A stretch of 64,000 bases of DNA from an uncultured Polaribacter sp. (GTDB lineage Bacteria; Bacteroidota; Bacteroidia; Flavobacteriales; Flavobacteriaceae), in the NCBI GenBank assembly GCA_943787375.1, contig CALSME010000001.1:10001-74000 (forward strand), given 5' to 3'. Shown here piece after piece: positions 32,532-64,000 of this stretch (the stretch's first letter is position 1; every line of letters begins with the position of its first letter). The notes below the pieces were generated by a model. The model ran no database searches, was not told where the DNA came from, and saw nothing but the letters and a program-made list of their open reading frames with translations. The position numbers and the translations under genes are program-made.

Positions 32532-32875
32532 GAATTAGTGTTAGTTGTATCTAATGTTTATGCAGTCGTGCAATTCACTGGTAAAGACAAATCCAATATA
32601 ATTTTAATGAGTGAATGTACAAATAATCTCATGTTGACGGTCAACTTTAGCTTGTATTAAGGTTCTTTTTTTGATTTACAGTTACTTCGTTTGTAATTAT
32701 TTGTCAGTACTACTGTTGTAGATTTTAAGTGATGAAATTGATAATAGCGTTGTGTATTGATAGTTTTGGTTTTATTCTTAAACCATACAGAATATTTTTT
32801 TTACACTACATTTTGATTAAAATAAACAATCATATTTCTTTTTTGATTAATTTAGTAGCCAAACAATTCAAAATA
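32532..32875. other. Intergenic region upstream of the PUL regulator
   Basis: 344 bases between the desulfurase and the regulator start. It holds the perfect palindrome GTTGAC-G-GTCAAC at 32633-32645, the only compact symmetric site in the stretch. An open frame in phase with the regulator begins at 32729 but encodes a leader-like, low-quality sequence. No clear TTG/TAnnTTTG promoter was found. Confidence 0.45.
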
Positions 32876-35843: not shown

Positions 35844-38800
35844 ATGAAATCAATAATCAAAAACAATTTTATGCTTAGAAAAATCACATTATTACTTTTT
35901 GCATTTTCAACACTGTGTGCAACTGCACAAAAGATGGATGTAAAAGGAATTGTTAAAGATGCAGCGTCAGGAGAAATTCTTCCAGGGGTTAGTATCGTTA
36001 TTAAAGGTAGTAATACTGGAACTGAAACAGATTTTGATGGTCTGTACAGTTTGAACAATGTAACAAAAGGTGCAACCCTTATTTTCAGATACTTAGGTTA
36101 CAAATCAAACGAAGTAGTTGTAAATAGCACAACTATCAATGTCTCATTAGAGAGCTCAGCAGAGACCCTAGATGAGATTGTTGTCATTGGGTATGGTACA
36201 CAACGTAAAAAAGAAGTTACCGGTGCAGTATCTGTCGTTTCTAGTGCATCCATAGAACAATTAAAACCAACTCGAATAGAGCAAGCATTACAAGGACAAG
36301 TTGCAGGTGTAAATGTTACAGCTTCTTCAGGTTCTCCTGGTGCCGCTTCTAACATTCGAATTCGAGGGATTTCTACCAACGGAGACAACCGACCCCTAAT
36401 CTTAGTAGATGGTAATATTATTGAAGATTTAAGTGTTGTCAATCCATCCGATATCGAATCCATCAATGTATTAAAAGATGCAACGGCTGGTATTTACGGA
36501 GTTAGAGGTGCTAACGGGGTTATTTTGATTACCACCAAAACAGGGAAGAAAGAAACAGATTATAAATCAACCTTGAACTACTATGTAGGTTTCCAACAAA
36601 CCACGAAAGAGATTTCATTGTTAAATGCAACTGAATATGCTTTGCTTGCCAATGAAGCTTTCGCTGCCAATGGAGAAGCATTGCCATTTCCAAATGTAAA
36701 TGGTTTAGGACAAGGTACGAACTGGCAAAAGGCCGTTTTTGATACCGCACCAATTTATAGTTTGGATTATACTTTAAACAAAGGAACTGAAAAATCTACC
36801 TATTCATTAGGAATCTCTGTTTTAGACCAAGACGGTATTGTTGGAAGAGACAAATCCAACTTTAACAGAAGAAATGTGAAGTTCAACTACAACAGAGACC
36901 TTACAGATAAGTTGAAATTATCAACGTCTACCATCTATACAAATACCAATAAAAAGAATTTAATAGAAAATGCTTTAGGATCTGTTTTGTTCAATGCCTT
37001 AAACATGCCAGCAACTACGCCAGTTTATGATGCGAACGGTGATTTCTCTTTACCTCCAGCAATTGGAACGGGTATTGAAGTTGCCAATCCACTCGCTCAG
37101 GTAGATAATAGCTATAACCGAACTTGGGTGAATAAAATCTCTGGTTCTTATGGATTAAATTATCAATTTTTAGATGGTTTCTCTGCAGAAGCAAGATACC
37201 AATTCAACCATGCGAAAGTAAATGGAAAATCATTCTCCCCAATAGCTTATTTTGGGAATGGTAGTGTTTTTAACGTAGATGTACCCGGTGTTAACGAATA
37301 TAGCCAAACCTATAAGGATTATACTTTTGATGCTTTTGTAAGTTATGAAAATACTTTTGATGAAGATCATAATGTAAAAGTATTGTTAGGAACTTCTGTG
37401 TTTAGATCTCAAGGATTTAATGATACGAATTTTACTCAAAACGGGGTGACTGGTACGGACCTAAACAGTGTGAGTATTACACCAGGTGCTCAAGACAATT
37501 TAGCGTTGAGTAACAATCCAAGACAATTTTTTGACAGCCGATTGTTGTCTTATTTTTCTCGTTTGCAATACAACTACAAAGGGAAGTACTTAATGTCTGC
37601 CGTTATAAGGAGAGATGGTTCTTCAAATTTTGGACCTAAAAACAAGTTTGGTTTTTTCCCTTCAGCCTCTGTGGGTTGGGTAGTGTCGGATGAAGCTTTT
37701 CTAGAAGATTCAGAAGTTATTAATAACTTAAAATTAAGAGCTAGTTATGGAATCATCGGAAACGATCGAATTGGATCTTTTGGTTTTGTTTCTTTATTAA
37801 CAGGAGAAGGTGTGTATGCTTTCAATAACCAATTGACCTATGGAACAGCTTTAGGCGCAATTTCCAATCCAGAAATTAAATGGGAGAAACAAATTCCATT
37901 GGATTTCGGTCTTGATATCAGTTTGTTCAACAACAAAGTAGATATTACTGCCGATTACTTTAAAAAGACGACAGAAGACTTATTATTAAGACCTCAAGTG
38001 TCAGGAATCTTAGGAGTTTCTGCTCCTGGAGCTTCTGCACCTATTGTAAATGCAGGTTCTGTTGTCAATGAAGGATTTGAGTTCTCTATCGGATACAATC
38101 ATACCGTATCTGAAGATTTCAAATTTAGTGCCAACTACAACTTTACCACATTAGACAATAATGTAACTTTTGTAGGAAACGCGACGGGTGTAATAGAAGG
38201 TGGATCTTTTGGAGTAGGGCAACAAGCACCCTCTAGAATGGAAGCTGGTTTCCCAATCGGTTATTTCTACGGATACGAAACCAACGGAATCTTTCAGACC
38301 CAAGCAGATGTTGACGCACATGCTACACAAACCAATGCAGCGCCTGGAGATTTGAGATTTGTAGATACCAACGGCGATGGATCCATTACCAATGAAGATA
38401 GAACGTATATCGGTGATCCGATTGCAGACATTACTATGGGGATGAACTTTTCGTTCAATTACAAAGCTTTTGATTTCAATGCCTATGCTTTTGCTTCTTT
38501 AGGAAACGAAATTGTAAGAAGTTATGAAAGAAACTTGCCTTTGACCAATCGACTAAGCTATGTTTTAGACCGATGGACGGGTCCTGGGACAAGCAATACT
38601 TCTCCAAGAGTGACTACCGGTGCAACAGGAAATACCTTGTTCTCTGACTTTTATGTAGAAGATGGTTCTTTCTTAAGGTTGCAAAACATACAATTGGGAT
38701 ACACATTTGATGCGGACCAATTAGAGAAATTGCAATTTGATACAGTACGTTTTTATGTGTCAGCTAGCAACTTGTTTACATTGACAAAATACAAAGGATA

Positions 38801-38903
38801 CGATCCAACAACATCTAATGGAAGTCCAATTGGTGGTGGAATTGATCAAGGATTCTATCCAAATCCAAAGACCTTTTTATTCGGAGTTAATCTTAATTTT
38901 TAA
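35844..38903 (+). CDS. susC: SusC/RagA family TonB-linked outer-membrane transporter
   Basis: 1019 residues (1010 if the ATG at 35871 is used). A signal peptide ends near STLCATAQ, then a carboxypeptidase-regulatory-like domain (VKGIVKDAASGEILPGVSIVIKG), a TonB-box-like ETLDEIVVIGYGTQ, the plug (GQVAGVNVTASSGSPGAASNIRIRG, NPSDIESINVLKDATAGIYG) and a 22-strand barrel ending in FGVNLNF. It imports oligosaccharides across the outer membrane with energy from TonB. It forms an operon with susD 11 bases downstream. Confidence 0.97.
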   Translation: MKSIIKNNFMLRKITLLLFAFSTLCATAQKMDVKGIVKDAASGEILPGVSIVIKGSNTGTETDFDGLYSLNNVTKGATLIFRYLGYKSNEVVVNSTTINVSLESSAETLDEIVVIGYGTQRKKEVTGAVSVVSSASIEQLKPTRIEQALQGQVAGVNVTASSGSPGAASNIRIRGISTNGDNRPLILVDGNIIEDLSVVNPSDIESINVLKDATAGIYGVRGANGVILITTKTGKKETDYKSTLNYYVGFQQTTKEISLLNATEYALLANEAFAANGEALPFPNVNGLGQGTNWQKAVFDTAPIYSLDYTLNKGTEKSTYSLGISVLDQDGIVGRDKSNFNRRNVKFNYNRDLTDKLKLSTSTIYTNTNKKNLIENALGSVLFNALNMPATTPVYDANGDFSLPPAIGTGIEVANPLAQVDNSYNRTWVNKISGSYGLNYQFLDGFSAEARYQFNHAKVNGKSFSPIAYFGNGSVFNVDVPGVNEYSQTYKDYTFDAFVSYENTFDEDHNVKVLLGTSVFRSQGFNDTNFTQNGVTGTDLNSVSITPGAQDNLALSNNPRQFFDSRLLSYFSRLQYNYKGKYLMSAVIRRDGSSNFGPKNKFGFFPSASVGWVVSDEAFLEDSEVINNLKLRASYGIIGNDRIGSFGFVSLLTGEGVYAFNNQLTYGTALGAISNPEIKWEKQIPLDFGLDISLFNNKVDITADYFKKTTEDLLLRPQVSGILGVSAPGASAPIVNAGSVVNEGFEFSIGYNHTVSEDFKFSANYNFTTLDNNVTFVGNATGVIEGGSFGVGQQAPSRMEAGFPIGYFYGYETNGIFQTQADVDAHATQTNAAPGDLRFVDTNGDGSITNEDRTYIGDPIADITMGMNFSFNYKAFDFNAYAFASLGNEIVRSYERNLPLTNRLSYVLDRWTGPGTSNTSPRVTTGATGNTLFSDFYVEDGSFLRLQNIQLGYTFDADQLEKLQFDTVRFYVSASNLFTLTKYKGYDPTTSNGSPIGGGIDQGFYPNPKTFLFGVNLNF

Positions 38904-38914
38904 AATAAAGAAAA

Positions 38915-40408
38915 ATGAAAAAAATAAACATAAAGATTTTATCAGCAATCGTTCTTCTTACACTTGGTTTTTCGTGTAGTGATGATTTTGTGGATGTAAA
39001 ATCTCAAGCAGAGAATTCAGAAGACTATTTCAATACTGAAGAAGATTATCAAAATGCATTAATTGGTGCTTACGATTTATTACAATCGAGTTACATCAAT
39101 GTAATGTTAGGAGAAATTGCTTCTGACAACACCTTAGCGGGTGGAGAAAGCGCTACTGACGTTATTGGAATTCAAGAAGTAGATGACATGACACACACGC
39201 CTGTAAATGCTCAATTAAGAGATATTTGGGGATGGATGTTTTCAGGAGTCAACAGAGCGAACTATATTTTAGAGTTTAAAGACAATATCGATTTTGAAGG
39301 GAAAGAAGAAATTCTTGCACAAGCTCGCTTTTTAAGAGCTTACTATTACTTTGAGTTGGTGAAGTGGTTTGGAGATGTACCGTTAGTGGTGGATCAAAGA
39401 ATTTTATTTGGAGATCAATTTAATGTAGACAGAACTCCAAAAGCACAAGTATATGCACAGATTGAATTGGATTTAATCTATGCTGCGGACAACTTACCGT
39501 ATACCCAAGCTGAAACTGGAAGAGTTACAAAAGGGGCAGCACAAGCTTTATTAGGAAAAGCGTATTTATATCAAGATAAATTTGACGAAGCAGCAGCTGT
39601 GTTGGATAATTTGATTTTAAACGGCCCTTATGATTTGGTAACCGATTACGACACCATGTTTGAAATGGAAGGAGAAAACAACATCGAGTCTGTTTTTGAA
39701 GTACAATACTCAGAATTAGAAGGTGCTGGTTTCGGTTGTCTTCAATGTAGTGAAGGAAATGTAGCAGTTGGTTTTAGCGGGATTCGTAATTACTCTGCAA
39801 CTCCAGGATCTGAAGGAGATATTTTCTCTTCAGGATTTAGTTTCAATGTACCTGTACAAGAAGTTGTAGATGCATTTGAAGAGGGAGATTTAAGAAAAGA
39901 TGTTGCTGTTTTAGACATTGATGCTTGGGCGACACAAACCGGAATTACCTTCGGAACAGGGAATGAGCATACTGGTTTTTTCAACAGAAAATACATTCCA
40001 AGAAAAAGAAGTGATGCGGCGCAAGGAGATCGAAACTTAACCAATCCAAATAATTACAGATCGATTCGTTTTGCAGACGTTTTATTAATGGCTGCAGAAG
40101 CTTTCAATAGAGGTACTGCTTCCAATGATGCAAAAGCGCAGAGTTACTTAAATAGAGTACGTCAACGTGCTTTTGGAGACATGATGCACAATATTACTGC
40201 AACAGGAGCTACACTTACAGAAAACATTTTTCAAGAAAGACGAGTAGAATTGGCTGGAGAAGGACATCGATTCTTCGATTTGGTACGAACAGGAAAAGCA
40301 GCACAAGAAATTGATGGTTTTGTAGCAGGAAAACATGAAGTGTTTCCAATTCCAGTAATAGAAATTCAATTAACAGGAAACCGTTGGTCTCAAAACCCAG
40401 GATACTAA
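38915..40408 (+). CDS. susD: SusD/RagB family glycan-binding lipoprotein
   Basis: 497 residues. Lipobox GFSC (Cys about 21), so a surface lipoprotein that caps the SusC channel. TPR-like helices (LAQARFLRAYYYFELVKWFGDVPLV is the hallmark SusD helix) and the C-terminal FQERRVELAGEGHRFFDLVRTGKA, typical of RagB/SusD. Adjacent SusC proves the pairing. The glycan cannot be told from SusD alone; context suggests beta-1,3-glucan. Confidence 0.97.
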   Translation: MKKINIKILSAIVLLTLGFSCSDDFVDVKSQAENSEDYFNTEEDYQNALIGAYDLLQSSYINVMLGEIASDNTLAGGESATDVIGIQEVDDMTHTPVNAQLRDIWGWMFSGVNRANYILEFKDNIDFEGKEEILAQARFLRAYYYFELVKWFGDVPLVVDQRILFGDQFNVDRTPKAQVYAQIELDLIYAADNLPYTQAETGRVTKGAAQALLGKAYLYQDKFDEAAAVLDNLILNGPYDLVTDYDTMFEMEGENNIESVFEVQYSELEGAGFGCLQCSEGNVAVGFSGIRNYSATPGSEGDIFSSGFSFNVPVQEVVDAFEEGDLRKDVAVLDIDAWATQTGITFGTGNEHTGFFNRKYIPRKRSDAAQGDRNLTNPNNYRSIRFADVLLMAAEAFNRGTASNDAKAQSYLNRVRQRAFGDMMHNITATGATLTENIFQERRVELAGEGHRFFDLVRTGKAAQEIDGFVAGKHEVFPIPVIEIQLTGNRWSQNPGY

Positions 40409-40419
40409 AATATAGCACC

Positions 40420-42468
40420 ATGAAAAAAATAAAAAATATATACAAAACAATTGCAGTGTTGCTATTAATAGCAGCCTGTACAGATACTGATGAAAGAGAG
40501 TTGTCGTTTTTAGACAGCATGTCTGCACCAGCGAATTTAGAAATGTTGTTCAGCATTACACAAGATAACACAGGAGCAGCTACCATCACACCCAATGCGG
40601 ATGGTGCATCTACTTTTGATGTTTATTTTGGCGATGCAACTCCAGATCCATTAAGAATACCTAATGGAGAAAATGCACAACATGTGTATGCAGAAGGTAC
40701 TTATGACGTAAAATTAGTAGCATACAACACCAAAGGGGATGCTACAGAATTGACAAAACCTATCGTAGTTTCTTTCAGAGCTCCAGAAAATTTGATGACG
40801 ACCATTGAAAATGATGCAGCCGTTTCGAAACAGGTAAATGTGAGTGCATCTGCAGACTTTGCCATGATGTATGAATTTCATTCAGGCGAAGCAGGTGTAA
40901 CACAACCCGTTGCAACCGCAAATATTGGTGAAGCATTGTCTTACCAATATGCCGATGCAGGTACCTACACTGTTCAAATTATTGCAAAAGGGGGTGCGAT
41001 TGAAACAACAACCTATTCGGTTGATTTTGAAGTCACTGAAATTTTAGCACCAACAGCAGGTGCAACAACGCCACCAGCAAGAAACGATTCAGATGTCGTT
41101 TCAATCTTTAGTGATGCTTATACAAATGTTACATTGGATGAATTACCAACAGGTTGGTCTGCATCAGGTTTTGAAGCAACAACGATTGGTAGTGACAATG
41201 TATGGAAGTTAACGAACCTAGATTTCGTAGGAATGGTAACTAACTATGCAAATGGAATTGATGTTGCTGATATGGAAATGATGCACATTGATTATTGGGT
41301 TCCTGAAGGAGTCACTAATGAATTACTTGTTAAAATCGTAAATACAGTAGATGGTGGTGAAGATGTAGAATCTTTAGGAACTACCGTAACTGGTTCTTGG
41401 CAAAGTGTGGAGATCGATATGGCTAATTTTGATGGGAATCTTGCAAACAAAAATAAAATAACACAGATATTAATCGACTCAGACGGCGTTGCAGGTATCG
41501 TATATGTAGATAACTTTTATTTTTATAAAGCACCCTCAAGTGTTGTTACAAGTTCAGTTCAAGATTTTGAAGGAGCCGCACCTACAATCACACCTTTTGG
41601 TGATGCAGCTGCAGCAATAATTTCAAACCCTGATGCTTCAGGAGCAAACACAACAGCTACTGTAGTTGAATTTACAAAGCCAACAGGAGCGCAAACATGG
41701 GCAGGAGCAACTTTAGACCTTACAAGCCCATTAGATTTAACAAACTTCTCTAAGATAAGTGTTAATACATGGTCTCCAAAAGTTGGAGCTGTGGTAAAAG
41801 TAAAAATAGAAAACGCAGACGCTAGTATTACGCATGAAGTGGATATAAATACAACCACTACAAGTTCTTGGGAAGAATTAATTTATGACTTTAGTGCAGC
41901 GCCAGCTGCTGACTATGTAAAATTAGTGGTATTCTTTGATTTTGGAAATGGGGGAGACGGTTCCGTTTATTATTATGATGAAATCAATCTCGTGAATGAT
42001 TCAGGAGTTGTAGCATCTTTAACTTTTCAAGATTTTGAAGGAGCCGCACCTACAATCACACCTTTTGGTAGTGCAGCTGCAGCAATAATTTCAAACCCTG
42101 ATGCTTCGGGAGTAAACACAACAGCTACTGTAGTTGAATTTACAAAGCCAACAGGAGCGCAAACATGGGCAGGAGCAACTCTAGATGTTACCACTCCATT
42201 AGACTTTGCGACTTATTCTAAGATAAGTGTTAATACATGGTCTCCAAAAGTTGGAGCTGTCGTAAAAGTAAAAATAGAAAATGCAGATGCTAGTATTACA
42301 CATGAAATAGATGTGAACACTACAGTTGCTAATTCTTGGGAAGAGCTTACCTATGATTTCAGTGCAGCACCTACTGCAGATTATGTAAAAGTTGTTGTAT
42401 TTTTTGACTTTGGAAATGGGGGAGATGATACGGTATACTACTATGACGAATTAAAATTAACAAACTAA
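40420..42468 (+). CDS. Surface glycan-binding lipoprotein with PKD-like and duplicated carbohydrate-binding domains
   Basis: 682 residues from the ATG at 40420; the frame opens 12 codons earlier inside susD. Lipobox IAAC (Cys about 19). Order: two PKD/Ig-like domains (about 30-210), a jelly-roll-like domain starting SDVVSIFSDAYTNV (about 230-375), then two almost identical domains of about 150 residues beginning QDFEGAAPTITPFG. Position after susCD and lack of a catalytic motif make this a SusE-like binding protein holding glycan at the surface. The SIFSDAYTNV domain recurs in the lipoprotein at 58089. Confidence 0.85.
   Translation: MKKIKNIYKTIAVLLLIAACTDTDERELSFLDSMSAPANLEMLFSITQDNTGAATITPNADGASTFDVYFGDATPDPLRIPNGENAQHVYAEGTYDVKLVAYNTKGDATELTKPIVVSFRAPENLMTTIENDAAVSKQVNVSASADFAMMYEFHSGEAGVTQPVATANIGEALSYQYADAGTYTVQIIAKGGAIETTTYSVDFEVTEILAPTAGATTPPARNDSDVVSIFSDAYTNVTLDELPTGWSASGFEATTIGSDNVWKLTNLDFVGMVTNYANGIDVADMEMMHIDYWVPEGVTNELLVKIVNTVDGGEDVESLGTTVTGSWQSVEIDMANFDGNLANKNKITQILIDSDGVAGIVYVDNFYFYKAPSSVVTSSVQDFEGAAPTITPFGDAAAAIISNPDASGANTTATVVEFTKPTGAQTWAGATLDLTSPLDLTNFSKISVNTWSPKVGAVVKVKIENADASITHEVDINTTTTSSWEELIYDFSAAPAADYVKLVVFFDFGNGGDGSVYYYDEINLVNDSGVVASLTFQDFEGAAPTITPFGSAAAAIISNPDASGVNTTATVVEFTKPTGAQTWAGATLDVTTPLDFATYSKISVNTWSPKVGAVVKVKIENADASITHEIDVNTTVANSWEELTYDFSAAPTADYVKVVVFFDFGNGGDDTVYYYDELKLTN
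41560..42468 (+). repeat. Tandem internal duplication of a binding domain
   Basis: Two direct copies, 41560-42000 and 42028-42468, spaced 468 bp (156 codons) start to start. Long stretches are identical at DNA level, while the middle and the ends have diverged, indicating a recent duplication or gene conversion. The second copy ends exactly at the C-terminus of the protein. Confidence 0.9.
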
Positions 42469-42478
42469 AACAAATACA

Positions 42479-43393
42479 ATGAAAAATATTAATTATATAA
42501 AAACAGTATTGTTTGCAGTTGTTTTTACTTTTTTAGGCTGTCAAGAAGATGAGTATTCTTTTGGAGACATTGTGACGCCTTCAAATATTGTTATTACAGC
42601 TGAAATTGTGGGAGCAGATGCTGCAAACCCAAATGGGGATGGTAGTGGTGTTGTAAATTTTACAGCAACCGCAGACAACGCCGTTTCTTACAAATATGTA
42701 TTCAATGGTGAAGAAACAGTTTCTTTGTCTGGAAACAATAGTATTAGCTTTAGTTCTTTAGGACTAAACACCTATACGGTAACCGTAGTTGCTTCTGGAA
42801 CTGCAGGAGTCTCTTCAAGCAAATCCATCGAAGTAGATGTATTGTCTACCTATGCTCCACCAGCAGATTTAATTGCTAAGCTCTATGGATACGATCCAGC
42901 AGACCCTACAGCTGTAACATCTAGAACTTGGAAAGTGCACTCAGCTAAAAACAAACACTTTGGTTTAGGTCCAGTAGGAGGTCAAGTTCTAACCGAATGG
43001 TATGGAGCTGGTCCCGATGAAAAAGCAGGAACAGGAATGTATGACGATCGTTTTACCTTTAGTTCTGACGGTACCTTTACTCACGTTACCAATGGAACTG
43101 TTTTTGGTAGAGACCCTTATATCGTGAATGATTTAGGTCCCAATGCATCTGGAAATGTAAACGGTGCAGATATTGAAAACTATGCCTTTGACGATTATAC
43201 TGCATCTTGGACCCTTACAGCACCGGGAGGAACCGAAACGATTAGTCTTTCGGGAACTGCATTTGTAGGATACTATACGGGTGGAAATCACCAATATCAA
43301 ATCTTTGACAGAGAAACTCCTAATGAAATGATCTTAAAAACAACCGATGCAAATGCTGAATTTGACTGGTGGTTTATCATCACTTTAGAATAA
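42479..43393 (+). CDS. SusF-like surface lipoprotein with an Ig-like/PKD domain
   Basis: 304 residues. Lipobox TFLGC (Cys about 21). An N-terminal Ig/PKD-like domain (about 30-125) is followed by a C-terminal beta-rich domain with many aromatic and glycine residues (TSRTWKVHSAKNKHFGLGP, DEFTFSSDG-like DDRFTFSSDGTFTHV, FDWWFIITLE). This C-terminal domain, with its RTWK opening and tryptophan-rich end, is common in lipoproteins encoded after susD in flavobacterial laminarin loci (recalled, not searched). A glycan-binding role is inferred. Last gene before the terminator at 43451. Confidence 0.75.
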   Translation: MKNINYIKTVLFAVVFTFLGCQEDEYSFGDIVTPSNIVITAEIVGADAANPNGDGSGVVNFTATADNAVSYKYVFNGEETVSLSGNNSISFSSLGLNTYTVTVVASGTAGVSSSKSIEVDVLSTYAPPADLIAKLYGYDPADPTAVTSRTWKVHSAKNKHFGLGPVGGQVLTEWYGAGPDEKAGTGMYDDRFTFSSDGTFTHVTNGTVFGRDPYIVNDLGPNASGNVNGADIENYAFDDYTASWTLTAPGGTETISLSGTAFVGYYTGGNHQYQIFDRETPNEMILKTTDANAEFDWWFIITLE

Positions 43394-45773: not shown

Positions 45774-46117
45774 ATTCAATAAAAACATTCAGCGATAAAA
45801 CACCTTTTAAAATTTCAATAGAAAGCAAAAAAAAACTCCAATGAAATTCGTTGGAGTTTTTAAGATGTAGTAAAAGAAATATTATCCTTTTACTTTGTTT
45901 TTGAAGTTTTCAAACTTTGTTTCTTCCTTTTTAGGCCAGCTATTGTTTGAAGTATCTACATCCGCAGTTTCTTCATCTGGATCTAGTTTAAAGCTTACAA
46001 TTTCTTGAGTAGCAGAGAACACCCTTTTTACAGAAGTGTCATTCTGCATCCAAATTTGAGCAGGGAAGGTTTGTCTTTCTGTAGTTCCATCTGCATATGT
46101 CAATTCTACAATGATTG
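45774..46117 (-). repeat. 344-bp direct repeat, copy 2 (within the intact M1 gene and its terminator)
   Basis: Partner of 43756-44099. It spans from 108 bases beyond the M1 stop into the last 79 codons of the gene. The breakpoint at 46117 falls at GGTAATGCC (minus strand), which contains GTAATGCC, one mismatch from the GTTATGCC border of the insert. Confidence 0.95.
45829..45857 (-). terminator. Terminator of the M1 peptidase gene at 45882
   Basis: Stem ACTCCAATG / CGTTGGAGT (one G-T type pair) with A7 giving the T-run on the minus strand. Confidence 0.8.
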
Positions 46118-48086: not shown

Positions 48087-48200
48087 TTTTAATTGTTTTT
48101 TGAAATGGCGTCTAAATTAAGAATTTGTATTTAAATGAGTTGAAAAATGTTAAAAAATTAACAAATCTTTACCAAAATAAATGTCAAAATTGGTCATAAA

Positions 48201-48230
48201 AAAAGCGAAATCAATTTGATTTCGCTTTTT
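48201..48230 (-). terminator. Terminator of the M1 gene at 48248
   Basis: Long stem AAAAGCGAAATCA / TGATTTCGCTTTT with an ATT loop; the A-run gives a T-run on the minus strand. Confidence 0.88.
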
Positions 48231-48247
48231 AGAGATAAAGGTCTTTT

Positions 48248-54959: not shown

Positions 54960-57900
54960 ATGAGGAATTATTTTTTAAGAATTATTTTATTATGCTGTTC
55001 TTTGAACTTATTTGCGCAAGCAAATAGCGTTAAAATAATTGACAATGAGCAAGGAGTTAAATTGTCCGTTAATGGAAACGATTTTATGATTAATGGTATG
55101 AATTGGGACTATTTTCCAATTGGCACCAATTATTCATACAGTTTATGGAATCAATCCGAAGATGTTATAAAGGCAGCTTTAGATACAGAAATGAGTTTGC
55201 TTAAAAATATGGGTGTAAATACGATTCGTGTATATACAGGGATTCAGCCAAAATGGATTACTTATATCTACGAAACATACGGAATTCATACCATGCTTAA
55301 TCATTCATTTGGTAGATATGGATTGACGGTCAATGGCGCATGGGTTCCTAAGACAGATTATTCTGATGCTACCACACAAGCCATTTTATTGAAGGAAATT
55401 ACAGCCGTTGTTAATGAATATAAAAACACGCCTGGTTTACTCATGTACCTATTAGGAAATGAAAATAATTATGGATTGGTTTGGAAAGGAGCCGAAACGG
55501 AAGACCTACCCATCAATGAAGATGATTATTCTGTTGCCGCTAAGTATCTATACCAAATGTTTAATAAGGCAGCAGTAGCTATGAAAGAAATGGATCGTTC
55601 GCATCCAGTAGCGATCTGTAATGGCGATTTAGGTTTTTTGGATATTGTTTCAAAAGAATGTAAAGATGTAGACATTTACGGAACAAATATGTATCGCGGA
55701 AAATCTTTCGGAGATGCTTTTAAAAGAGTAAAAAAAGAACTAAACATGCCCATCATGTTTACCGAATTTGGAGCGGATGCATTCAATGCAGTTACCAACG
55801 AAGAAGATCAGAAAATGCAAGCGCACTTTATGGTTGAAAACTGGAGAGAAATTTACCAAAATGCTGCCGGATTAGGAAAAGCAGAAAATTCCTTAGGTGG
55901 TTTTACGTTTCAGTTTAGTGATGGTTGGTGGAAATTTGGTCAGACAAAAGACTTAGATGTTCATGATAACAATGCTTCTTGGTCCAACGGAGGATATTAT
56001 ATAGATTTCAAAGAAGGAAAAAATAATATGAATGAAGAGTGGTTTGGAATCTGTGCCAAAGGACCCACAAACGCGGCAGGATTGTATACTTTATACCCTA
56101 GAGCAGCTTATTATTCCTTACAAGAAGCACATCGCATCAATCCATTTGATGAAGGAGTTACATCTACTTCAGTAGCAAAACATTTTTCGAACATTAGTTT
56201 AATGGACGGCGTTTTAAGAGCAAGAGGCGGTAATGCTACAATGGGGAGTAACGAAAAAATAAGTCTGAGTAATTTAAGAGCAGAATTTACAACGTTCAAT
56301 ACAGGAGGAGATTTATTAACCACGCCAAGTATTGCAGATCCAGAAAACACAGGCTATCCAAATAGAACTGGTTTCGATCACATGCAATCTTATTTTATAG
56401 GAGTGCAAGCACAACCCTCTGCAAATATGAGAGCAGAAGTGAATGTCAATGTCCTAGGGAATGTGGCTGCAAATCCGATTGATGAAATATTCTACGAAAA
56501 TAGAAATCGTCCGGTAGTGGTTAACACAGACAATGGAAACGTAACCCTTACAGACAATAATAGAGTCCAAGTTTACAATGCATCTTTCGATTGGAAATCA
56601 GATGCTTTTGATGTGAGAGGATTTTATAGAACAGGTCATTACCATTGGCAATATGAAGGTGACGTTTTTGGGTTATATCCAGAAGCAAATTATGGACCGA
56701 ATTTAGATATTTACGGAGGTGAGATTTTAGGTATTGAAGTAGATGGTAAAGGGGTTTTGGAAGGATTAAAAGCTGCTTTTGGACCTCAGTTATGGTGGGG
56801 AGCAAATCCAGCATTGCTTTTAAAATACAGTACAGAAATCGGGAAATACACTTTTACAAGTGTGTTTCATGAAGATGTTAATAAAAGAGATACTAGAGAA
56901 GCACAAACATCTGGTTTTATTCCTTTACCTCAAACACGTAGATTGACACTAGCATTGGAAAGAAAATATGATAATTTCGGATTCCAATTAGGAGGTATCT
57001 GGGGAGGTCAACCCTTAAACGGAAGAGAATACCAAGATATTAGATACAATAATGATGGCACAAGTGATGTTGTGGTAGATCGTGTGAAAGCAGCTGATAA
57101 CTGGGGAAGTAAATTAAAAGTGACCTATACCAAAGGAACTTTTAACTGGTATGCACAATCTGCTGTAATGGGACTTGTTGCAAACGGAGGTGCCGATGCA
57201 ACCACTACTTTTACAGGCTGGAAATTGAAAGACAATGGAAGTGGGAATCAGGCAAACTTTTTAACAGGATTTACATTCAGTTCAGGGAACTTACAAATAG
57301 CACCCAACTTTTTATGGCAAAAACCCCTTGTTGCTGCCATGCCAAACGGTATTGATGCTCCAGGAAGATTAAGAAATATACAGGCAGATCCATTTGTGGT
57401 AAGAGGCAATAGAGAAACGACTGCAGGAGAAATTTTATTTACTTATGATCCAACACCAGGAACTTGGATGTATGAGTGGGATAATGACCGTGCAGAAGAC
57501 GCCAATTTTGCGATGAATTTAGGATTTGTATACAGACACCTTCCAACAACACAAGATGCTGCAATCGGTTTCTTTTCCAATCGATCAATTTTTGCATTTG
57601 GAGAATCAGCACCTGCTGAAGACCTTTGGGAAGTAAATTCAAGAATTGTTTCTAAAATGAGTCCAGATTTTGGGTTTATTGCCAACCTCTATTATGGAAA
57701 TGGTCAAGCGAACGGAAGTGATGCACGATTGATAACAAGATCGGGTGGAGACCTTCGTATGATTTATAATAAATTGAAAGTAACCGCTACCGCAAAGTTT
57801 AATGATTGGGGACCTTTTGATTATCACCGAGATTTTAATTTAACATATCCTACACAATTAATGTTGGATTTCTCGACCACTTTAGGAAAGCCAGGTTGGT

Positions 57901-58076
57901 TTGTTTTACCAAATACCAAAATGGGAATTCGCGGAACTTGGAGATCCCTAGACCAATATTCTCCGAGATATACTTTTAGCAGTACAGATGCTTCTACTTT
58001 AAACCTAGCAGGACAGTCAAACGGTTCTGAATGGGAAATTAGAACATACATTCATATTAATGTTGGAAAACAATAA
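54960..58076 (+). CDS. Clan GH-A glycoside hydrolase (GH2-like TIM barrel) with a C-terminal outer-membrane-barrel-like domain
   Basis: 1038 residues from the ATG at 54960, which opens a signal peptide (IILLCCSLNLFAQA). Residues about 20-430 form a TIM barrel of the Glyco_hydro_2_C/GH-A type: INGMNWDYFP, GVNTIRVYTG, the acid/base glutamate in LGNENNYG (E168), DIYGTNMYRG, and the nucleophile glutamate in MFTEFGADAF (E269). The usual GH2 sandwich domains are missing. The other 600 residues are amphipathic strands with aromatic girdles (ASFDWKSDAFDVRGFYRTGHYHW, RRLTLALERKYDNFGFQLGGIW, VNSRIVSKMSPDFGFIANLYYG), ending in EWEIRTYIHINVG, like a porin. Substrate inferred from neighbours: beta-1,3-glucan. 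Confidence 0.75.
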   Translation: MRNYFLRIILLCCSLNLFAQANSVKIIDNEQGVKLSVNGNDFMINGMNWDYFPIGTNYSYSLWNQSEDVIKAALDTEMSLLKNMGVNTIRVYTGIQPKWITYIYETYGIHTMLNHSFGRYGLTVNGAWVPKTDYSDATTQAILLKEITAVVNEYKNTPGLLMYLLGNENNYGLVWKGAETEDLPINEDDYSVAAKYLYQMFNKAAVAMKEMDRSHPVAICNGDLGFLDIVSKECKDVDIYGTNMYRGKSFGDAFKRVKKELNMPIMFTEFGADAFNAVTNEEDQKMQAHFMVENWREIYQNAAGLGKAENSLGGFTFQFSDGWWKFGQTKDLDVHDNNASWSNGGYYIDFKEGKNNMNEEWFGICAKGPTNAAGLYTLYPRAAYYSLQEAHRINPFDEGVTSTSVAKHFSNISLMDGVLRARGGNATMGSNEKISLSNLRAEFTTFNTGGDLLTTPSIADPENTGYPNRTGFDHMQSYFIGVQAQPSANMRAEVNVNVLGNVAANPIDEIFYENRNRPVVVNTDNGNVTLTDNNRVQVYNASFDWKSDAFDVRGFYRTGHYHWQYEGDVFGLYPEANYGPNLDIYGGEILGIEVDGKGVLEGLKAAFGPQLWWGANPALLLKYSTEIGKYTFTSVFHEDVNKRDTREAQTSGFIPLPQTRRLTLALERKYDNFGFQLGGIWGGQPLNGREYQDIRYNNDGTSDVVVDRVKAADNWGSKLKVTYTKGTFNWYAQSAVMGLVANGGADATTTFTGWKLKDNGSGNQANFLTGFTFSSGNLQIAPNFLWQKPLVAAMPNGIDAPGRLRNIQADPFVVRGNRETTAGEILFTYDPTPGTWMYEWDNDRAEDANFAMNLGFVYRHLPTTQDAAIGFFSNRSIFAFGESAPAEDLWEVNSRIVSKMSPDFGFIANLYYGNGQANGSDARLITRSGGDLRMIYNKLKVTATAKFNDWGPFDYHRDFNLTYPTQLMLDFSTTLGKPGWFVLPNTKMGIRGTWRSLDQYSPRYTFSSTDASTLNLAGQSNGSEWEIRTYIHINVGKQ

Positions 58077-58088
58077 ACAGTTACAATC

Positions 58089-59492
58089 ATGAAAACTAAA
58101 AAACAAATTTATTCAAAAATCACCCTTCTTTTAAGCTTACTCTTAGTAGTAACTACAGGGTGTGAAAGAGCACTTTCAGAAGATGTTGTATTGGCAACCT
58201 ATTCTCCATCTCCAGATGTTTATATCGATGGTTTTAGTAGTGGACTAGAATACTACCCGTATTTAAATTCTAAATACGAAGCCTTTTCTGTAGACATCGA
58301 AGAAAAGTACAAAGGAAGTTCTTCGATGCGTTTTGATGTACCTGTAGAAGGAGATCCTGCCGGAGGGTATGCGGGAGCTATTTTTAGAGATGATAATGGT
58401 GGACGAAACCTAACAGAGTACAATGCTTTAACCTTTTGGGCAAAAGCAACACAATCGGCAAAAATTAATGATATTGGTTTTGGACAAGATTTTGGAGAAA
58501 ATAAATTTGAAGTAAGCAAACGAGGATTGCAATTAACCACAAATTGGGTAAAATATGTAATCCCAATTCCAGATGCCTCTAGATTAGTGCAAGAAAAAGG
58601 AATGCTTTGGTATGCAGAAGGCCCAGAAAATGGAGAAGGATATAGCTTTTGGATTGATGAAGTGAAGTTTGAAAAATTAGGTACTATTTCAGATATTGAA
58701 GCTTTAATTTTAGAGGGAGATGACAAAGTAATTACCTCTTTTAATGGTGTACAAACAACCATAGATGGAGTTTCTGCTACCTTTAACTTCACAGATCAGA
58801 TCTCTCAAACCATCTCAATCTCTCCAGCTTATTTAAACTTTAGTTCTTCGAATACAAGCGTTGCTACTGTTGATGAATTTGGCGTAGTAACTACACTAAA
58901 TGCAGGAACTGCAGTCATAACAGCAACCTTTAATGGGCAGCAAGTAGCAGGAAGCCTAACCATCAATTCTTTGGGAGCATTTTCACATGCACCCATTCCA
59001 ACACAGGATCCAGCAAATGTAATTTCATTATTTTCAGATGCTTATACCAATGTGCCAGTAAACTATTATAATGGATATTGGGCTCCTTGGCAAACAACTT
59101 TGTCTGATGACTTTACGGTAGATGGCGACAATATATTACAATACACCATTTTTAATTTTGTAGGTGTAGAGTTCAGTTCACCAACGGTAGATGCTACATC
59201 CATGTCTCATTTCCATTTAGATGCATACATTCCAGGTCCAATTGCTCCAGGAAGACAGCTTAGAGTATTGTTGGTAGATTTTGGTGCGGATGGCGCCTAC
59301 GGAGGTGGAGATGATACCAGGCATTCAACAACCTTTACAGCCCCTACTTTAGTGTCTCAAAACTGGATATCAATCGATTTACCTTTTTCGAGTTTAACAG
59401 GTTTAGGCAGTAGATCGAATATGGCGCAGTTGATATTAGAAGGTGGAGATGGCTCCAAAATTTTTATTGACAATCTTTATTTTTATAACTAA
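58089..59492 (+). CDS. Surface carbohydrate-binding lipoprotein with an Ig-like (BIG2) domain
   Basis: 467 residues. Lipobox TTGC (Cys about 25). Three domains: an N-terminal jelly roll (about 40-200; YIDGFSSGLEYYPYLNSKYEAF, LTEYNALTFWAKATQSAKI, GYSFWIDEVKFEKLG), a BIG2-like Ig domain (about 215-295; NTSVATVDEFGVVTTLNAGTAVITATFNG) and a C-terminal jelly roll (about 315-467) that starts NVISLFSDAYTNVP and ends IFIDNLYFYN. The last domain is the same family as the middle domain of the SusE-like protein at 40420. No catalytic residues: a glycan-binding helper. It is 12 bases after the GH-A gene. Confidence 0.82.
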   Translation: MKTKKQIYSKITLLLSLLLVVTTGCERALSEDVVLATYSPSPDVYIDGFSSGLEYYPYLNSKYEAFSVDIEEKYKGSSSMRFDVPVEGDPAGGYAGAIFRDDNGGRNLTEYNALTFWAKATQSAKINDIGFGQDFGENKFEVSKRGLQLTTNWVKYVIPIPDASRLVQEKGMLWYAEGPENGEGYSFWIDEVKFEKLGTISDIEALILEGDDKVITSFNGVQTTIDGVSATFNFTDQISQTISISPAYLNFSSSNTSVATVDEFGVVTTLNAGTAVITATFNGQQVAGSLTINSLGAFSHAPIPTQDPANVISLFSDAYTNVPVNYYNGYWAPWQTTLSDDFTVDGDNILQYTIFNFVGVEFSSPTVDATSMSHFHLDAYIPGPIAPGRQLRVLLVDFGADGAYGGGDDTRHSTTFTAPTLVSQNWISIDLPFSSLTGLGSRSNMAQLILEGGDGSKIFIDNLYFYN

Positions 59493-59550: not shown

Positions 59551-62500
59551 ATGTATTATATGACGAAGAATCCGATTTTTTTAGGAAAAAATAGCGCTTA
59601 TAACCCTTCTTTAGAAGTGAGCGGAACCCAAGTAATTATAGAAGGCGAGGTCTATTATAAAATTTCGAATAGCAATAAAATGAGACCGTTTTTCATTAGT
59701 CTCGTAAGTAATTCCGATCATTGGATGTTTATTTCAAGTAATGGAGGTTTATCTGCTGGTAGAAAAAATGCTGAGAAAGCTTTATTTCCTTATTATACAG
59801 ACGATAAAATAACAGAATCTTCAGACACTACAGGAAGTAAAACCATCCTTCATGTTCACAAAGAGGATAAAACATTTCTTTGGGAACCGTTTTCAGATAG
59901 ATATGAAGGCGTATATGCTATCCAAAGGAATTTGTACAAAAATAATTATGGAAACAAACTTATTTTTGAAGAAGTTAATGAAGATTTAGGAATTACTTTT
60001 CAGTACCAATGGAATACAAGTACAAAATTTGGTTTTGTAAAGAAATCTACGATAGAAAATAATAGTACCACAGCTGTTGAGGTTACTATTTTAGATGGTA
60101 TTCAAAATATTTTACCTTACGGAATCGCTTCAGATTTTCAAAATAGCACGAGCAATCTTATCGACGCCTACAAAAAATGTGAATTAGAAAAAGATACCGG
60201 TTTAGGAATTTTTGCTTTGAGCGCTGTGATTGTAGATAAAGCGGAACCAAGTGAAGCTTTGAAGGCCAACACTGTTTGGTCTACAGGTGTTAAAAATCCG
60301 ACCTATTTAATTTCGTCATTGCAATTAAATGCTTTTAGAAAAGGAGAAGAAGTTCATCAAGAAGAAGATATAAAGGCAGAAAAAGGGGCTTATTTTACAG
60401 TGCAGAATCTCACGTTAGCGGCTAACAATCCAATTTCTTGGATGTTGGTTGCAAATGTAAATCAGAACCTTATTTCGATACAAGAAACAAAAGGAATCAT
60501 AAAAAACACTCCAGATGTTACTGCCTTTCTCCAAGAAGATATTGAAACAGGAACTGCGAAGTTGGTGCAGTTAGTTGCTGGGTCTGATGGATTGCAATTG
60601 GGAGAAAATCAACCCAGAAACACAAGACATTTTGCCAATACCCTTTTTAATATTATGAGAGGTGGTATTTTTGATAATAACTATCAAATTGAAAAAGAAG
60701 ATTTTATAAAATACATTTCAAAAGCAAATAAGAAAGTTGCCAAAAAGAAAGAAGATGTTTTAAAGAATTTACCAGAATTTTTCAATGTTGATTTTATTAA
60801 AAACCTTGCAGATACTGATTACGACGCCAATTTTAAAAGGCTTTGTTACGAATATTTACCGTTAAAATTTAGTAGAAGACATGGAGATCCAAGTAGACCT
60901 TGGAATAAGTTTTCTATCAATACCCGTAGCGAAATAGACGGTTCAAAAATTTTAGATTACGAAGGAAACTGGAGAGATATATTTCAAAACTGGGAAGCCT
61001 TAGCGCATTCTTATCCAGAGTTTATTGAAGGAATGATCTATAAGTTTTTAAACGCAACAACTTTTGAAGGTTACAATCCGTATCGAGTAACCAAAGATGG
61101 TTTCGACTGGGAGATTATTGAAGAAAATGACCCTTGGTCTTATATTGGATATTGGGGAGATCATCAAATTATTTATTTGCTGAAGTTCTTAGAATTTATA
61201 GAAAAATATTATCCAAACAAATTGTCTAAAAACTTTACAGAAGATGTGTTTGTATATGCGAATGTACCTTATGTAATTAAAAGTTACGAGGACACCTTAA
61301 AAGATCCAAAAGACACCATTGATTTCGATGCAAAATTAGACCAAAAAATTCAAGAAGAGAAAGAAAGACTTGGTGCTGATGGCGCTTTGTTAAGAGACGA
61401 AAATTTCTTTATACACAAAGTGAATTTAATCGAAAAATTATTGGCCACTGTATTGGCGAAAGTTTCCAACTTTATTCCCGAAGGAGGTATTTGGTTAAAT
61501 ACACAAAGACCAGAATGGAACGATGCCAACAATGCTTTAGTAGGAAATGGGGTTTCTATGGTGACACTATATTATCTAAGAAGGTTTATTAATTTCTTTG
61601 AAAATATTGTAGAAAAATCTTCGGAAGCATCCTATGCAGTTTCAAAAGAACTAACACACTTTTTCCAATCTGTAGCTTCAGGATTACACAGTCAACAGGG
61701 GATATTGTCAGGCAAAATTTCAGATACTGACCGTAAAACACTTTTAGACATCCTTGGAAAAGCAGGAAGTACCTATAGAGCCACAATATATGAAACGGGT
61801 TTTACTAGTGATAAAGAAGCAATTACGAAAGATGATTTAACTTCGTTCTTCAATGTGCTTAAAAAATATTTAGACCACACAATTGTTGCGAACAAACGTA
61901 CAGACAATCTGTATCATGCTTATAATCTGATGACGGTAGAAAACGATGCTGAGGTGTCTATTTCCTACCTATCAGAAATGTTAGAAGGTCAAGTAGCTGT
62001 TTTAAGTTCTGGTTATTTATCTGCAAAAGAAGCCTTATCTGTGTTGGATGGTTTAAAAGCAAGTGCTCTTTTTAGAGACGATCAATACAGTTATATTCTA
62101 TATCCGAATAAAGACCTGCCAAGGTTTACTAACAAGAATATCATTCCAGCAGCATCGGTAGAAAAATCGGAATTATTAAATCAACTCCTTGCAGATGGTA
62201 ATACACAGATCATCGAAAAAGACATTACAGGCGCTTATCATTTTAATGCCAATTTTAACAATGGTATTCGATTAAAAGAAACGTTGAATACACTTTCAGA
62301 TAGGTACCAATCATTATTAGCAAAGGATGAAAAACTCATTTTAGCAATTTATGAAGAAATGTTTGATCATAAATCCTTTACAGGAAGATCTGGAACATTT
62401 TTTGGCTATGAAGGTTTAGGATCTATTTACTGGCACATGGTTTCGAAGTTGTTAATCGCAGCACAAGAAAACTGTTTATTGGCAATTAATGAGAATGAAA

Positions 62501-63018
62501 GTGAAGTAGTAATCGGAAGATTATTGGAGCACTATTATGAAATAAATGAAGGGATTGGAGTTCATAAGTCTCCTGAATTGTACGGAGCATTTCCAACAGA
62601 TCCTTATTCTCATACCCCAGCAGGAAAAGGCGCACAACAACCAGGAATGACGGGCCAAGTGAAAGAAGATATTCTCTCGAGGTTCGGTGAAATTGGTGTT
62701 TTTGTAAAAGAGGGACAGTTGCAGTTCAATCCGAGGTTATTAAGAAAAGAAGAGTTTCTAACCGCTTCGAAAGATTTTACCTATGTCGATCTTGACAGCA
62801 GCAAAAAGACGTTGCACTTAGAAACAAATACTTTTTGTTTTACCTATTGTCAAATTCCAGTCATTTATAAGATTTCAGAGAAGAAGGGTGTTGAGGTGTT
62901 TTTTGAAGATGCATCCACCAAAGAATTTAAAGACTTAGTTGTAGATACAGCGGTAAGTCAAAAAATATTTGAAAGAACTGGTGAAGTAAAAAAGATAATC
63001 GTTTATATCAATAAGTAG
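59551..63018 (+). CDS. GH94/GH149-type beta-glucan phosphorylase, probably beta-1,3-oligoglucan phosphorylase
   Basis: 1155 residues, no signal peptide, so cytoplasmic. The glycosyltransferase-36-like N-terminal sandwich (VEGVYAIQRNLYKNNYGNKLIFEE-like segment, about 1-300), a helical linker and an (alpha/alpha)6 barrel are arranged as in inverting phosphorylases. The catalytic aspartate should be D658 in RPEWNDANNALVG, corresponding to the DWND aspartate of GH94. The length well above 800-residue cellobiose phosphorylases and the GH17 neighbour favour GH149, known to act on beta-1,3-glucan oligomers releasing glucose 1-phosphate. GH161 is the main alternative. Confidence 0.78.
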   Translation: MYYMTKNPIFLGKNSAYNPSLEVSGTQVIIEGEVYYKISNSNKMRPFFISLVSNSDHWMFISSNGGLSAGRKNAEKALFPYYTDDKITESSDTTGSKTILHVHKEDKTFLWEPFSDRYEGVYAIQRNLYKNNYGNKLIFEEVNEDLGITFQYQWNTSTKFGFVKKSTIENNSTTAVEVTILDGIQNILPYGIASDFQNSTSNLIDAYKKCELEKDTGLGIFALSAVIVDKAEPSEALKANTVWSTGVKNPTYLISSLQLNAFRKGEEVHQEEDIKAEKGAYFTVQNLTLAANNPISWMLVANVNQNLISIQETKGIIKNTPDVTAFLQEDIETGTAKLVQLVAGSDGLQLGENQPRNTRHFANTLFNIMRGGIFDNNYQIEKEDFIKYISKANKKVAKKKEDVLKNLPEFFNVDFIKNLADTDYDANFKRLCYEYLPLKFSRRHGDPSRPWNKFSINTRSEIDGSKILDYEGNWRDIFQNWEALAHSYPEFIEGMIYKFLNATTFEGYNPYRVTKDGFDWEIIEENDPWSYIGYWGDHQIIYLLKFLEFIEKYYPNKLSKNFTEDVFVYANVPYVIKSYEDTLKDPKDTIDFDAKLDQKIQEEKERLGADGALLRDENFFIHKVNLIEKLLATVLAKVSNFIPEGGIWLNTQRPEWNDANNALVGNGVSMVTLYYLRRFINFFENIVEKSSEASYAVSKELTHFFQSVASGLHSQQGILSGKISDTDRKTLLDILGKAGSTYRATIYETGFTSDKEAITKDDLTSFFNVLKKYLDHTIVANKRTDNLYHAYNLMTVENDAEVSISYLSEMLEGQVAVLSSGYLSAKEALSVLDGLKASALFRDDQYSYILYPNKDLPRFTNKNIIPAASVEKSELLNQLLADGNTQIIEKDITGAYHFNANFNNGIRLKETLNTLSDRYQSLLAKDEKLILAIYEEMFDHKSFTGRSGTFFGYEGLGSIYWHMVSKLLIAAQENCLLAINENESEVVIGRLLEHYYEINEGIGVHKSPELYGAFPTDPYSHTPAGKGAQQPGMTGQVKEDILSRFGEIGVFVKEGQLQFNPRLLRKEEFLTASKDFTYVDLDSSKKTLHLETNTFCFTYCQIPVIYKISEKKGVEVFFEDASTKEFKDLVVDTAVSQKIFERTGEVKKIIVYINK

Positions 63019-63019
63019 A

Positions 63020-64000
63020 ATGCAAAAGAAGCGAATGATTACATACCGAAATCCCAGAAAAGCAATACTCAGTATGAGTATAGCTCTTGTGGTCTTGGTT
63101 TTTAGTCTTTCGTGTACCACCTCAGTTCCCAAAGATGTAATTGTCAAAAAGACATCCAAAACTGCTGCACAGCTATTAGGAAATCCTAATTATTTGGCAA
63201 TGTCATATGGAGGATACAGAGAGAATTCAAGAGAAATACAGCCGACGATATCAGGATTAAAAGAAGATTTAAAAATTCTTTCTGCAATGGGGGTTAAAAT
63301 TATTCGAACCTACAATGTACAAAATCAATTCCCTCATGCAGCCAATGTTTTAAAAGCAATTTCCGAGCTTAAAAAAGAAGATTCCAACTTCGAAATGTAT
63401 GTGATGCTGGGCGCTTGGATTGATTGCTTAAATGCATGGTCTGCATCAGTACCAGATCACAACAAAGAAAGTTTGCAAAACTCTGGAGAGATTGACAGAG
63501 CTGTTGCTTTGGCAAAACAATATCCAGATATTGTAAAAGTAATTGCAGTGGGGAATGAAGCGATGGTGAAATGGGCCACAAGTTATTTTGTTCAGCCTAG
63601 TATAATTTTAAAATGGGTGAATCACCTTCAAAAATTAAAAAAAGAGGGTACATTGTGTAAAGACTTATGGATTACAAGCTCCGATGATTTTTCTTCTTGG
63701 GGTGGAGGAGATGCTAGTTATCATACCCAAGATTTAGAAGCTTTGATGCATGCAGTAGATTATGTTTCAATGCATACCTATCCGTATCATAATTCTCATT
63801 ACAATCCTTCTTTTTGGAAAACACCAGACCATTTAATCAGTTTTTCAGAAAATGAAAAAGTTGATGCTGCCATGATGCGCGCTCTAAATTTTGCAAAAAA
63901 TCAATATTACGCAGTTTCAAACTATATGAAAAGTCTAGGAATTGAGAAACCAATTCATATTGGTGAAACCGGTTGGGCAACGATTTCAAACGGACACTAC
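63020..64000 (+). CDS. GH17 endo-beta-1,3-glucanase-like lipoprotein (partial, runs off the window)
   Basis: 327 residues seen; the 3' end lies outside. Start ATG at 63020, one base after the phosphorylase stop, which implies coupled translation. Signal peptide with lipobox SLSC (Cys about 32). Clan GH-A barrel: YLAMSYGGYRE, GVKIIRTYNV, proton donor in AVGNEAMVKW (E180), VDYVSMHTYPY and nucleophile in HIGETGWAT (E316). GH17 enzymes hydrolyse or rearrange beta-1,3-glucans such as laminarin. As a lipoprotein it would work at the outer membrane surface. Confidence 0.9.
   Translation, partial: MQKKRMITYRNPRKAILSMSIALVVLVFSLSCTTSVPKDVIVKKTSKTAAQLLGNPNYLAMSYGGYRENSREIQPTISGLKEDLKILSAMGVKIIRTYNVQNQFPHAANVLKAISELKKEDSNFEMYVMLGAWIDCLNAWSASVPDHNKESLQNSGEIDRAVALAKQYPDIVKVIAVGNEAMVKWATSYFVQPSIILKWVNHLQKLKKEGTLCKDLWITSSDDFSSWGGGDASYHTQDLEALMHAVDYVSMHTYPYHNSHYNPSFWKTPDHLISFSENEKVDAAMMRALNFAKNQYYAVSNYMKSLGIEKPIHIGETGWATISNGHY

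Follow-up and report, generated by a model that had tools for sequence, protein, structure and literature searches.

A gene fusion of a glycosidase and a predicted outer-membrane beta-barrel in putative laminarin loci of Bacteroidota

A gene of an uncultured Polaribacter sp. (contig CALSME010000001.1, positions 10,001 to 74,000 of the forward strand; this full stretch of 64,000 nucleotides is referred to below as the window) raises the question of whether a polysaccharide-degrading enzyme can be built into its own outer-membrane channel and, if so, on which side of the membrane it acts and how it relates to the SusCD uptake system. The gene (window positions 54960..58076, + strand; residue numbers are those of its protein) was described in the initial annotation as one intact frame of 1038 codons, and frame analysis bore this out. 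The frame begins with ATG at 54960 (an alternative start, GTG, lies at 54915), runs uninterrupted to a stop codon at 58074-58076, and no overlapping frame of at least 100 codons was found at this place on either strand. Since it was recovered at nearly full length in 121 loci (some genomes being represented twice), 69 of which are left when mutual identity is held below 80%, a chance or misassembled open frame can be ruled out. Residues 1-20 (54960..55019, + strand) constitute a type I signal peptide ending in FAQ, and no lipobox was found at the N-terminus, as had been claimed. A loose lipobox pattern occurs in 3 of the 121 fused homologues, each time ahead of an ordinary AQ or SQ site; from this and the lipobox count given below for 67 fused proteins, attachment of the fusion as a lipoprotein was rejected.

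The C-terminal 605 residues (434-1038; 56259..58073, + strand) are predicted to form a beta-barrel of the outer membrane with about 24 strands. AlphaFold2 gave a predicted local distance difference test score (pLDDT) of 79.7 and a predicted template modelling score (pTM) of 0.55 for the full protein, and 80.1 and 0.79, respectively, for the barrel alone; the DSSP line of the full-length model contains 24 core strands. With Foldseek, 49 of the 50 matches listed for the barrel model were titled outer-membrane barrels, the exception being the artificial metalloprotein 9j9n, and the best of them included ZnuD, BtuB, MOMP and OprC. With VIA, where the barrel was searched alone because the glycosidase domain fills the list for the full-length model, all 50 matches listed were membrane beta-barrels, one of them mitochondrial; among these were AlgE (Z 14.6, root-mean-square deviation (rmsd) 5.5, 289 aligned), the fimbrial ushers PapC (Z 13.6, rmsd 5.0, 367 aligned across model residues 3-613) and FimD, the OccK/OprD porins, LamB and chitoporin. 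These 50 contained no chain of an autotransporter or of SusC, which excludes neither kind. The connections between strands alternate in length, with a mean of 22.7 residues after odd strands and 4.9 after even ones (Mann-Whitney p 1e-4), and the hydrophobic/polar alternation within strands is 0.41, compared with 0.25 +/- 0.04 in within-strand shuffles, none of 5000 of which was as high. The signal peptide, the barrel fold and the long outer and short inner connections are what would be expected of an outer-membrane protein, and the porin-like character ascribed earlier to some 600 C-terminal residues is thereby upheld as a prediction.

It might be argued that the C-terminal half is in fact a soluble beta-rich module and that AlphaFold2 was misled. 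The window's copy of the barrel has no Pfam match, the 67 barrel domains that could be aligned (of 69 non-redundant rows; L016 and L112 were dropped because of a cut N-terminus or an internal stop) gave only scattered weak hits to 10 families (best E 0.013), no sequence relative was found in the PDB by profile search, and strand alternation taken alone is indecisive, as soluble sandwiches could alternate too. Nevertheless, this explanation is very improbable in view of the membrane barrels that make up the fold matches, the parity of long and short loops, and the type I signal without a lipobox; stacked jelly rolls and a soluble sandwich were rejected on the Foldseek and VIA results. The lack of a convincing Pfam match also explains why the barrel is missed by standard annotation.

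The glycosidase fold begins directly after the signal peptide and occupies residues 21-428 (55020..56243, + strand). The complete catalytic domain of glycoside hydrolase (GH) clan A, reported by the initial annotation with E168 and E269 as its catalytic residues, was borne out. Pfam family PF02836, the TIM-barrel family of GH2, matches residues 71-284 (29.8 bits, cut-off 21). The predicted acid/base E168 (55461..55463, + strand; within GNENN) and the predicted nucleophile E269 (55764..55766, + strand; within TEFGAD) are unchanged in all 58 homologues aligned (58 of the 69 non-redundant rows), and in a phmmer alignment to a GH158 chain (E 0.42) they fall on its GNE and TEFG motifs. As to the family, GH158, GH157 and GH2 chains are tied in VIA as the nearest solved folds (Z 26-27), the match to the GH158 chain 9p26 having Z 27.4 and rmsd 2.9 over 287 aligned residues, while sequence similarity to GH158 is marginal (E 0.00096 with a profile, E 0.42 with a single sequence). 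The sugar-binding and immunoglobulin-like (Ig) domains that precede the TIM barrel in GH2 were not found by Pfam, even with E values up to 1 allowed. With the GH158 and GH157 laminarinases (BuGH158, GH158(Pro), LaGH157) the fusion has in common the TIM-barrel fold, the acid/base and nucleophile motifs and the laminarin context. BuGH158 ends in an Ig-like domain (PMC7157763), whereas no such domain is present in the fusion, where the predicted barrel stands in its place. The glycosidase domain is presumably a GH158/GH157-like endo-beta-1,3-glucanase.

The fusion is real, old and conserved across many Bacteroidota. When 84,980 species genomes were scanned, at least 591 confirmed matches were obtained, 80 of which were kept as loci; the closest among these (L002-L005, three of the four from Polaribacter) are 91-98% identical to the window's protein. 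In a sample of 395 Bacteroidota genomes, drawn evenly over the phylum, the barrel was found in 34, all of which match the catalytic domain too, and in 33 of these both lie in one open frame of 1028-1084 residues, G474 having a broken copy. No other fusion partner was found with the barrel profile in the 395 genomes. The catalytic domain occurs in 52 of the genomes: 34 with the barrel, 9 without it at 52% identity or more, and 9 as weak matches (23-34% identity). One barrel-less gene, that of G373, is adjoined by a barrel remnant of 62 positions, which extends across and beyond its stop codon (L146:3444-3629; E 1.4e-9) and indicates that the barrel was lost there; here a fusion appears to have been caught while decaying.

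The gene next to the fusion gene is conserved as well. In the window, a lipoprotein resembling surface glycan-binding proteins (58089..59492, + strand), with a TTGC lipobox followed by ERALSED, whose acidic residues resemble an export signal, starts 12 bases 3' of the fusion gene. This partner lipoprotein is the next same-strand gene in all 77 fused loci whose available sequence includes a downstream gene (3 of the 80 were left out), at a median gap of 12 bases. Further fused loci outside the window's family have it in 14 of 15 cases. The sole exception, L201 (G395), has a GH18 protein after the fusion gene, and GH149, GH30, a major facilitator superfamily (MFS) transporter and a PKD-type protein before it. 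The second downstream gene is a GH16 in 68 of 74 fused loci, after which GH149, GH17, GH30 and MFS genes come in varying completeness. No GH16 gene was found between the partner lipoprotein and GH149 in the window, where the partner is directly followed by a GH149 1,3-beta-glucan phosphorylase (59551..63018, + strand; NCBIfam NF058639, 1807 bits; no signal peptide seen) and a GH17-like lipoprotein that runs off the window (63020..64000, + strand), and then, beyond the window end in the genome, by GH30 and an MFS transporter, a kind of protein that resides in the inner membrane; the GH17, GH30 and MFS families were assigned via homologues in L143. From this operon and the fold, laminarin is very likely to be the substrate of the fusion protein. 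In barrel-less loci, by contrast, the partner lipoprotein is next in none of 10 and GH149 in 8 of 10 (L145 was left out, its downstream gene being outside view), so that barrel and lipoprotein travel together, which is not what a mere anchor would predict. Right after this laminarin operon, in the genome just downstream of the window, lie genes for two secreted proteins of several domains, some of them repeated, with near-alike C-terminal tails that resemble type IX secretion signals (L154:5132-6736 and L154:7155-10247).

On which side of the membrane, then, would the glycosidase act? The initial annotation had glycan cut at the pore mouth; the position at a barrel mouth stands, and the topology and the barrel-less relatives point to the periplasmic mouth rather than the outside. 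As a rule, outer-membrane proteins have their long connections outside, and the N-terminal domains of fimbrial ushers are periplasmic. In the barrel model, the glycosidase sits on the side of the short turns; if the long connections are taken as outside, strand 1 rises from the periplasm and the glycosidase is therefore periplasmic. Outward-facing lipoproteins of Bacteroides bear acidic residues after the lipid-bearing cysteine (PMC6222051), and we counted at least two acidic residues between +2 and +6 as such a signal, only in proteins with a recognised lipobox (partner lipoproteins 53/77, small GH16 61/70, SusD 17/21, GH17 24/36, GH30 9/11, barrel-less glycosidases 6/10). The signal is common in the partner lipoproteins (46/53), the small GH16 (49/61) and SusD (17/17), and scarce in GH17 (2/24), GH30 (0/9) and the barrel-less glycosidases (1/6). 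The latter thus look periplasmic, as GH17 does, in agreement with the predicted topology of the fusion; MlGH17A of Muricauda is likewise a predicted periplasmic lipoprotein (PMC13188888). On the strength of loop parity, the match to ushers and the relatives that lack a barrel, we consider a periplasmic location of the glycosidase likely.

The opposite location would follow if the barrel delivered the N-terminal glycosidase to the cell surface in the manner of type V autotransporters, which have the same order of an N-terminal enzyme and a C-terminal barrel; the predicted surface location of BuGH158 (PMC7157763) would suit such a function. However, the barrel has about 24 predicted strands instead of 12, no autotransporter Pfam domain matches the fusion protein, and of the 6 barrel-less relatives that have a lipobox, 5 do not carry the acidic signal for the surface. 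Moreover, the helix before the barrel also ends the glycosidase domain of barrel-less relatives (as judged by eye), and hence it is no pore-spanning linker. Autotransporter-like delivery therefore appears improbable.

The relation of the fusion to SusCD differs between families. In the window, a Y_Y_Y/LuxR-type regulator (32729..35677; all genes of this set are on the + strand), a homologue of which elsewhere often lies just upstream of the fusion gene, precedes genes for a SusC-like TonB-dependent transporter of laminarin type (35844..38903), a SusD-like lipoprotein (38915..40408), a PKD/carbohydrate-binding-module protein resembling surface glycan-binding proteins (40420..42468) and a protein of 304 residues without a Pfam match at 0.01 (42479..43393). 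Because homologues of the set directly precede the fusion gene in L011, L053 and L058, where that of the 304-residue protein adjoins it, the set at 35844-43393 can be recognised as the laminarin SusCD. It ends 11.6 kilobases (kb) upstream of the fusion gene, from which unrelated genes part it in the window; these include two adjacent M1-family peptidase genes (45882-50368, - strand), and the interval holding them splits two halves that are contiguous in some relatives. In all 12 fusion genomes searched in the window's family (its own included), a SusC 49-100% identical to that of the window lies on the fusion gene's own strand, 3.4-17 kb upstream of it and in 9 of them within 8 kb. Among six genomes outside this family, two had no SusC match (E 1e-100), three had matches only elsewhere than at the locus (31-36% identity), and G025 had a match of 42% about 12 kb upstream, a SusC encoded in a single frame of 1053 residues. 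Profile searches found neither SusC nor SusD in fifteen loci, 14 of them 20 kb long and one 5.8 kb, with about 8-9 kb upstream in view; they bear 11 other family labels and were chosen by hand from the 32 fused loci known outside the window's family. Seven large unassigned genes of these loci matched no TonB-receptor family, and the one of L194 (1088 residues) matched nothing. Over the 53 of the 80 fused loci that span at least 19 kb, both SusC and SusD lie within 8 kb in 12 and either in 13. Of 11 barrel-less loci, 5 show both and 6 neither; in two of the latter (L146, L151) the upstream sequence covered only about 2 kb. A simple swap of the barrel for SusCD was not borne out, given the SusC genes near the fusion in the window's family and the 6 barrel-less loci with neither gene. 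Nevertheless, the absence of detected SusC and SusD from the 14 loci of 20 kb makes it plausible that the fusion would work independently of SusC outside the window's family.

These data bear on the main alternative, according to which the barrel merely anchors the glycosidase at the outer membrane, as the lipid anchor does in barrel-less relatives, and transport is left to SusCD. A lipobox is indeed present in 6 of 10 barrel-less relatives and 2 of 67 fused proteins with a readable N-terminus (Fisher p 2e-5, kinship ignored; L145 and L190, whose N-terminus is outside view, and L016 and L112 were left out), and SusC is nearby in every fusion genome searched in the window's family. On the other hand, 24 strands would be costly for mere attachment, the predicted outer connections are as conserved as the strands (57 of 272 positions invariant against 52 of 275), the partner lipoprotein is present or absent together with the barrel, and no SusCD was found in the loci outside the window's family. 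We regard simple anchoring as unlikely, though less so than surface delivery.

The fusion, its conservation, the predicted barrel fold, the operon and the joint presence of barrel and lipoprotein are computed results, and the mechanism we propose on their basis is a glucan port in the outer membrane whose inner mouth carries an endo-beta-1,3-glucanase. The type I signal peptide would export the protein and the C-terminal 605 residues would fold into a barrel of about 24 strands whose two ends lie in the periplasm, from which it would follow that the GH-A domain hangs at the inner mouth. The partner lipoprotein on the outer face would capture laminarin chains, a surface GH16 lipoprotein making the first cut in most relatives, and the fragments would cross the barrel and be cut again by the tethered glucanase on emerging. 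Cutting at the exit would thus keep up the gradient and feed the periplasmic GH17 and GH30; these would finish the digestion, the MFS transporter would import the products, and the cytoplasmic GH149 would phosphorolyse them. We hold this mechanism to be moderately probable; that the barrel conducts glucan at all is favoured by a slightly narrower balance.

Several points weigh against it. The full-length pTM makes the placement of the domains relative to each other uncertain, the fold matches of the barrel are distant (rmsd 4-9), the strand count leans partly on two short strands (590-596 and 603-608), and the catalytic family and activity are predictions. Of the 77 partner lipoproteins, a loose pattern recognised a lipobox in 53 and a stricter one in 34. 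GH30_1 is predicted to be cytoplasmic in Muricauda (PMC13188888), and the BuGH158 prediction mentioned above points to the surface. SusC is near the fusion gene in the window's family, and the 15 loci elsewhere reach only about 8-9 kb upstream, SusC being farther away than 8 kb in 3 of the 12 genomes of that family. When a quick tree was made from 86 catalytic domains, 8 changes were required to account for the form without a barrel, and supported branches force 6 or more of them; moreover, four barrel-less loci (L147, L149, L150, L153) show no SusC or SusD with 6.7-7.7 kb upstream in view; the barrel is therefore dispensable and does not simply stand in for SusCD.

A bolder version of the port is that the fusion and the lipoprotein constitute a complete glycan import port, free of SusCD and independent of TonB, with enzyme and pore in one polypeptide, to which SusCD was added later in the window's family. 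In this case the lipoprotein and GH16 would load the barrel, and the tethered glucanase would pull the glucan through by cutting at the exit. We put this forward tentatively, as rather doubtful. The weaker statement, that the fusion provides a separate uptake route, has a fair chance of being correct.

As for known systems, Flavobacteriia laminarin polysaccharide utilization loci (PULs) have been described with GH16, GH17 and GH30 (GH30_1) in variant B (PMC6298971) and, in variant 1, with orders such as GH149-GH0-GH30_1-GH17, one such locus of NS4 being without susCD (PMC10108472); GH17, GH30_1 and GH16, and in the latter paper GH149 too, are shared with the fusion loci. The excerpts of these two accounts contain no mention of a fusion to a barrel or porin. 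The unclassified GH0 gene of PMC10108472 may be the fusion gene, and in the laminarin locus of Muricauda a GH2 is listed upstream (PMC13188888); in PUL papers the fusion gene probably goes under GH0 or GH2. FbGH17b of Formosa, in which a GH17 is joined to a transport protein that spans the membrane, a fusion then undescribed in other bacteria (PMC6246565), is likewise a laminarin-locus enzyme with a transport protein attached, but its partner is named as an MFS transporter (PMC10108472) and not a barrel. A survey that covered 76 families of outer-membrane pores calls fusions to other domains rare and lists one enzyme fusion, to sphingomyelinase (PMC4827864); this SpmT family (TC 1.B.79) resembles our case in that a pore protein is listed with an enzyme fused to it, and differs in its origin from Actinobacteria, its length of about 450 residues, its 8 strands and its enzyme. 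The pairs SusCD and BtuB-BtuG also consist of a barrel and a lipoprotein from one operon; in contrast to them, the fusion has no match to the TonB-receptor plug PF07715, which the window's SusC has, or to TonB-receptor Pfam families, about 24 strands instead of 22, and an enzyme attached. The ushers PapC and FimD have a 24-strand barrel (PMC4827864) and align across nearly the whole barrel model, whereas the fusion carries an enzyme as its N-terminal domain, has sugar-locus neighbours and lacks an usher match, ushers not being among the 10 Pfam families matched by the 67 barrels at E up to 1. Among the literature matches listed, subscription papers being outside their coverage, we recognised no report of a fusion between a glycosidase and an outer-membrane barrel.

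The presence of an enzyme-pore fusion at the head of laminarin loci across many families, at times without a visible SusCD, suggests that these bacteria may have a second outer-membrane route, and the fusion offers one gene on which such a route could be tested.

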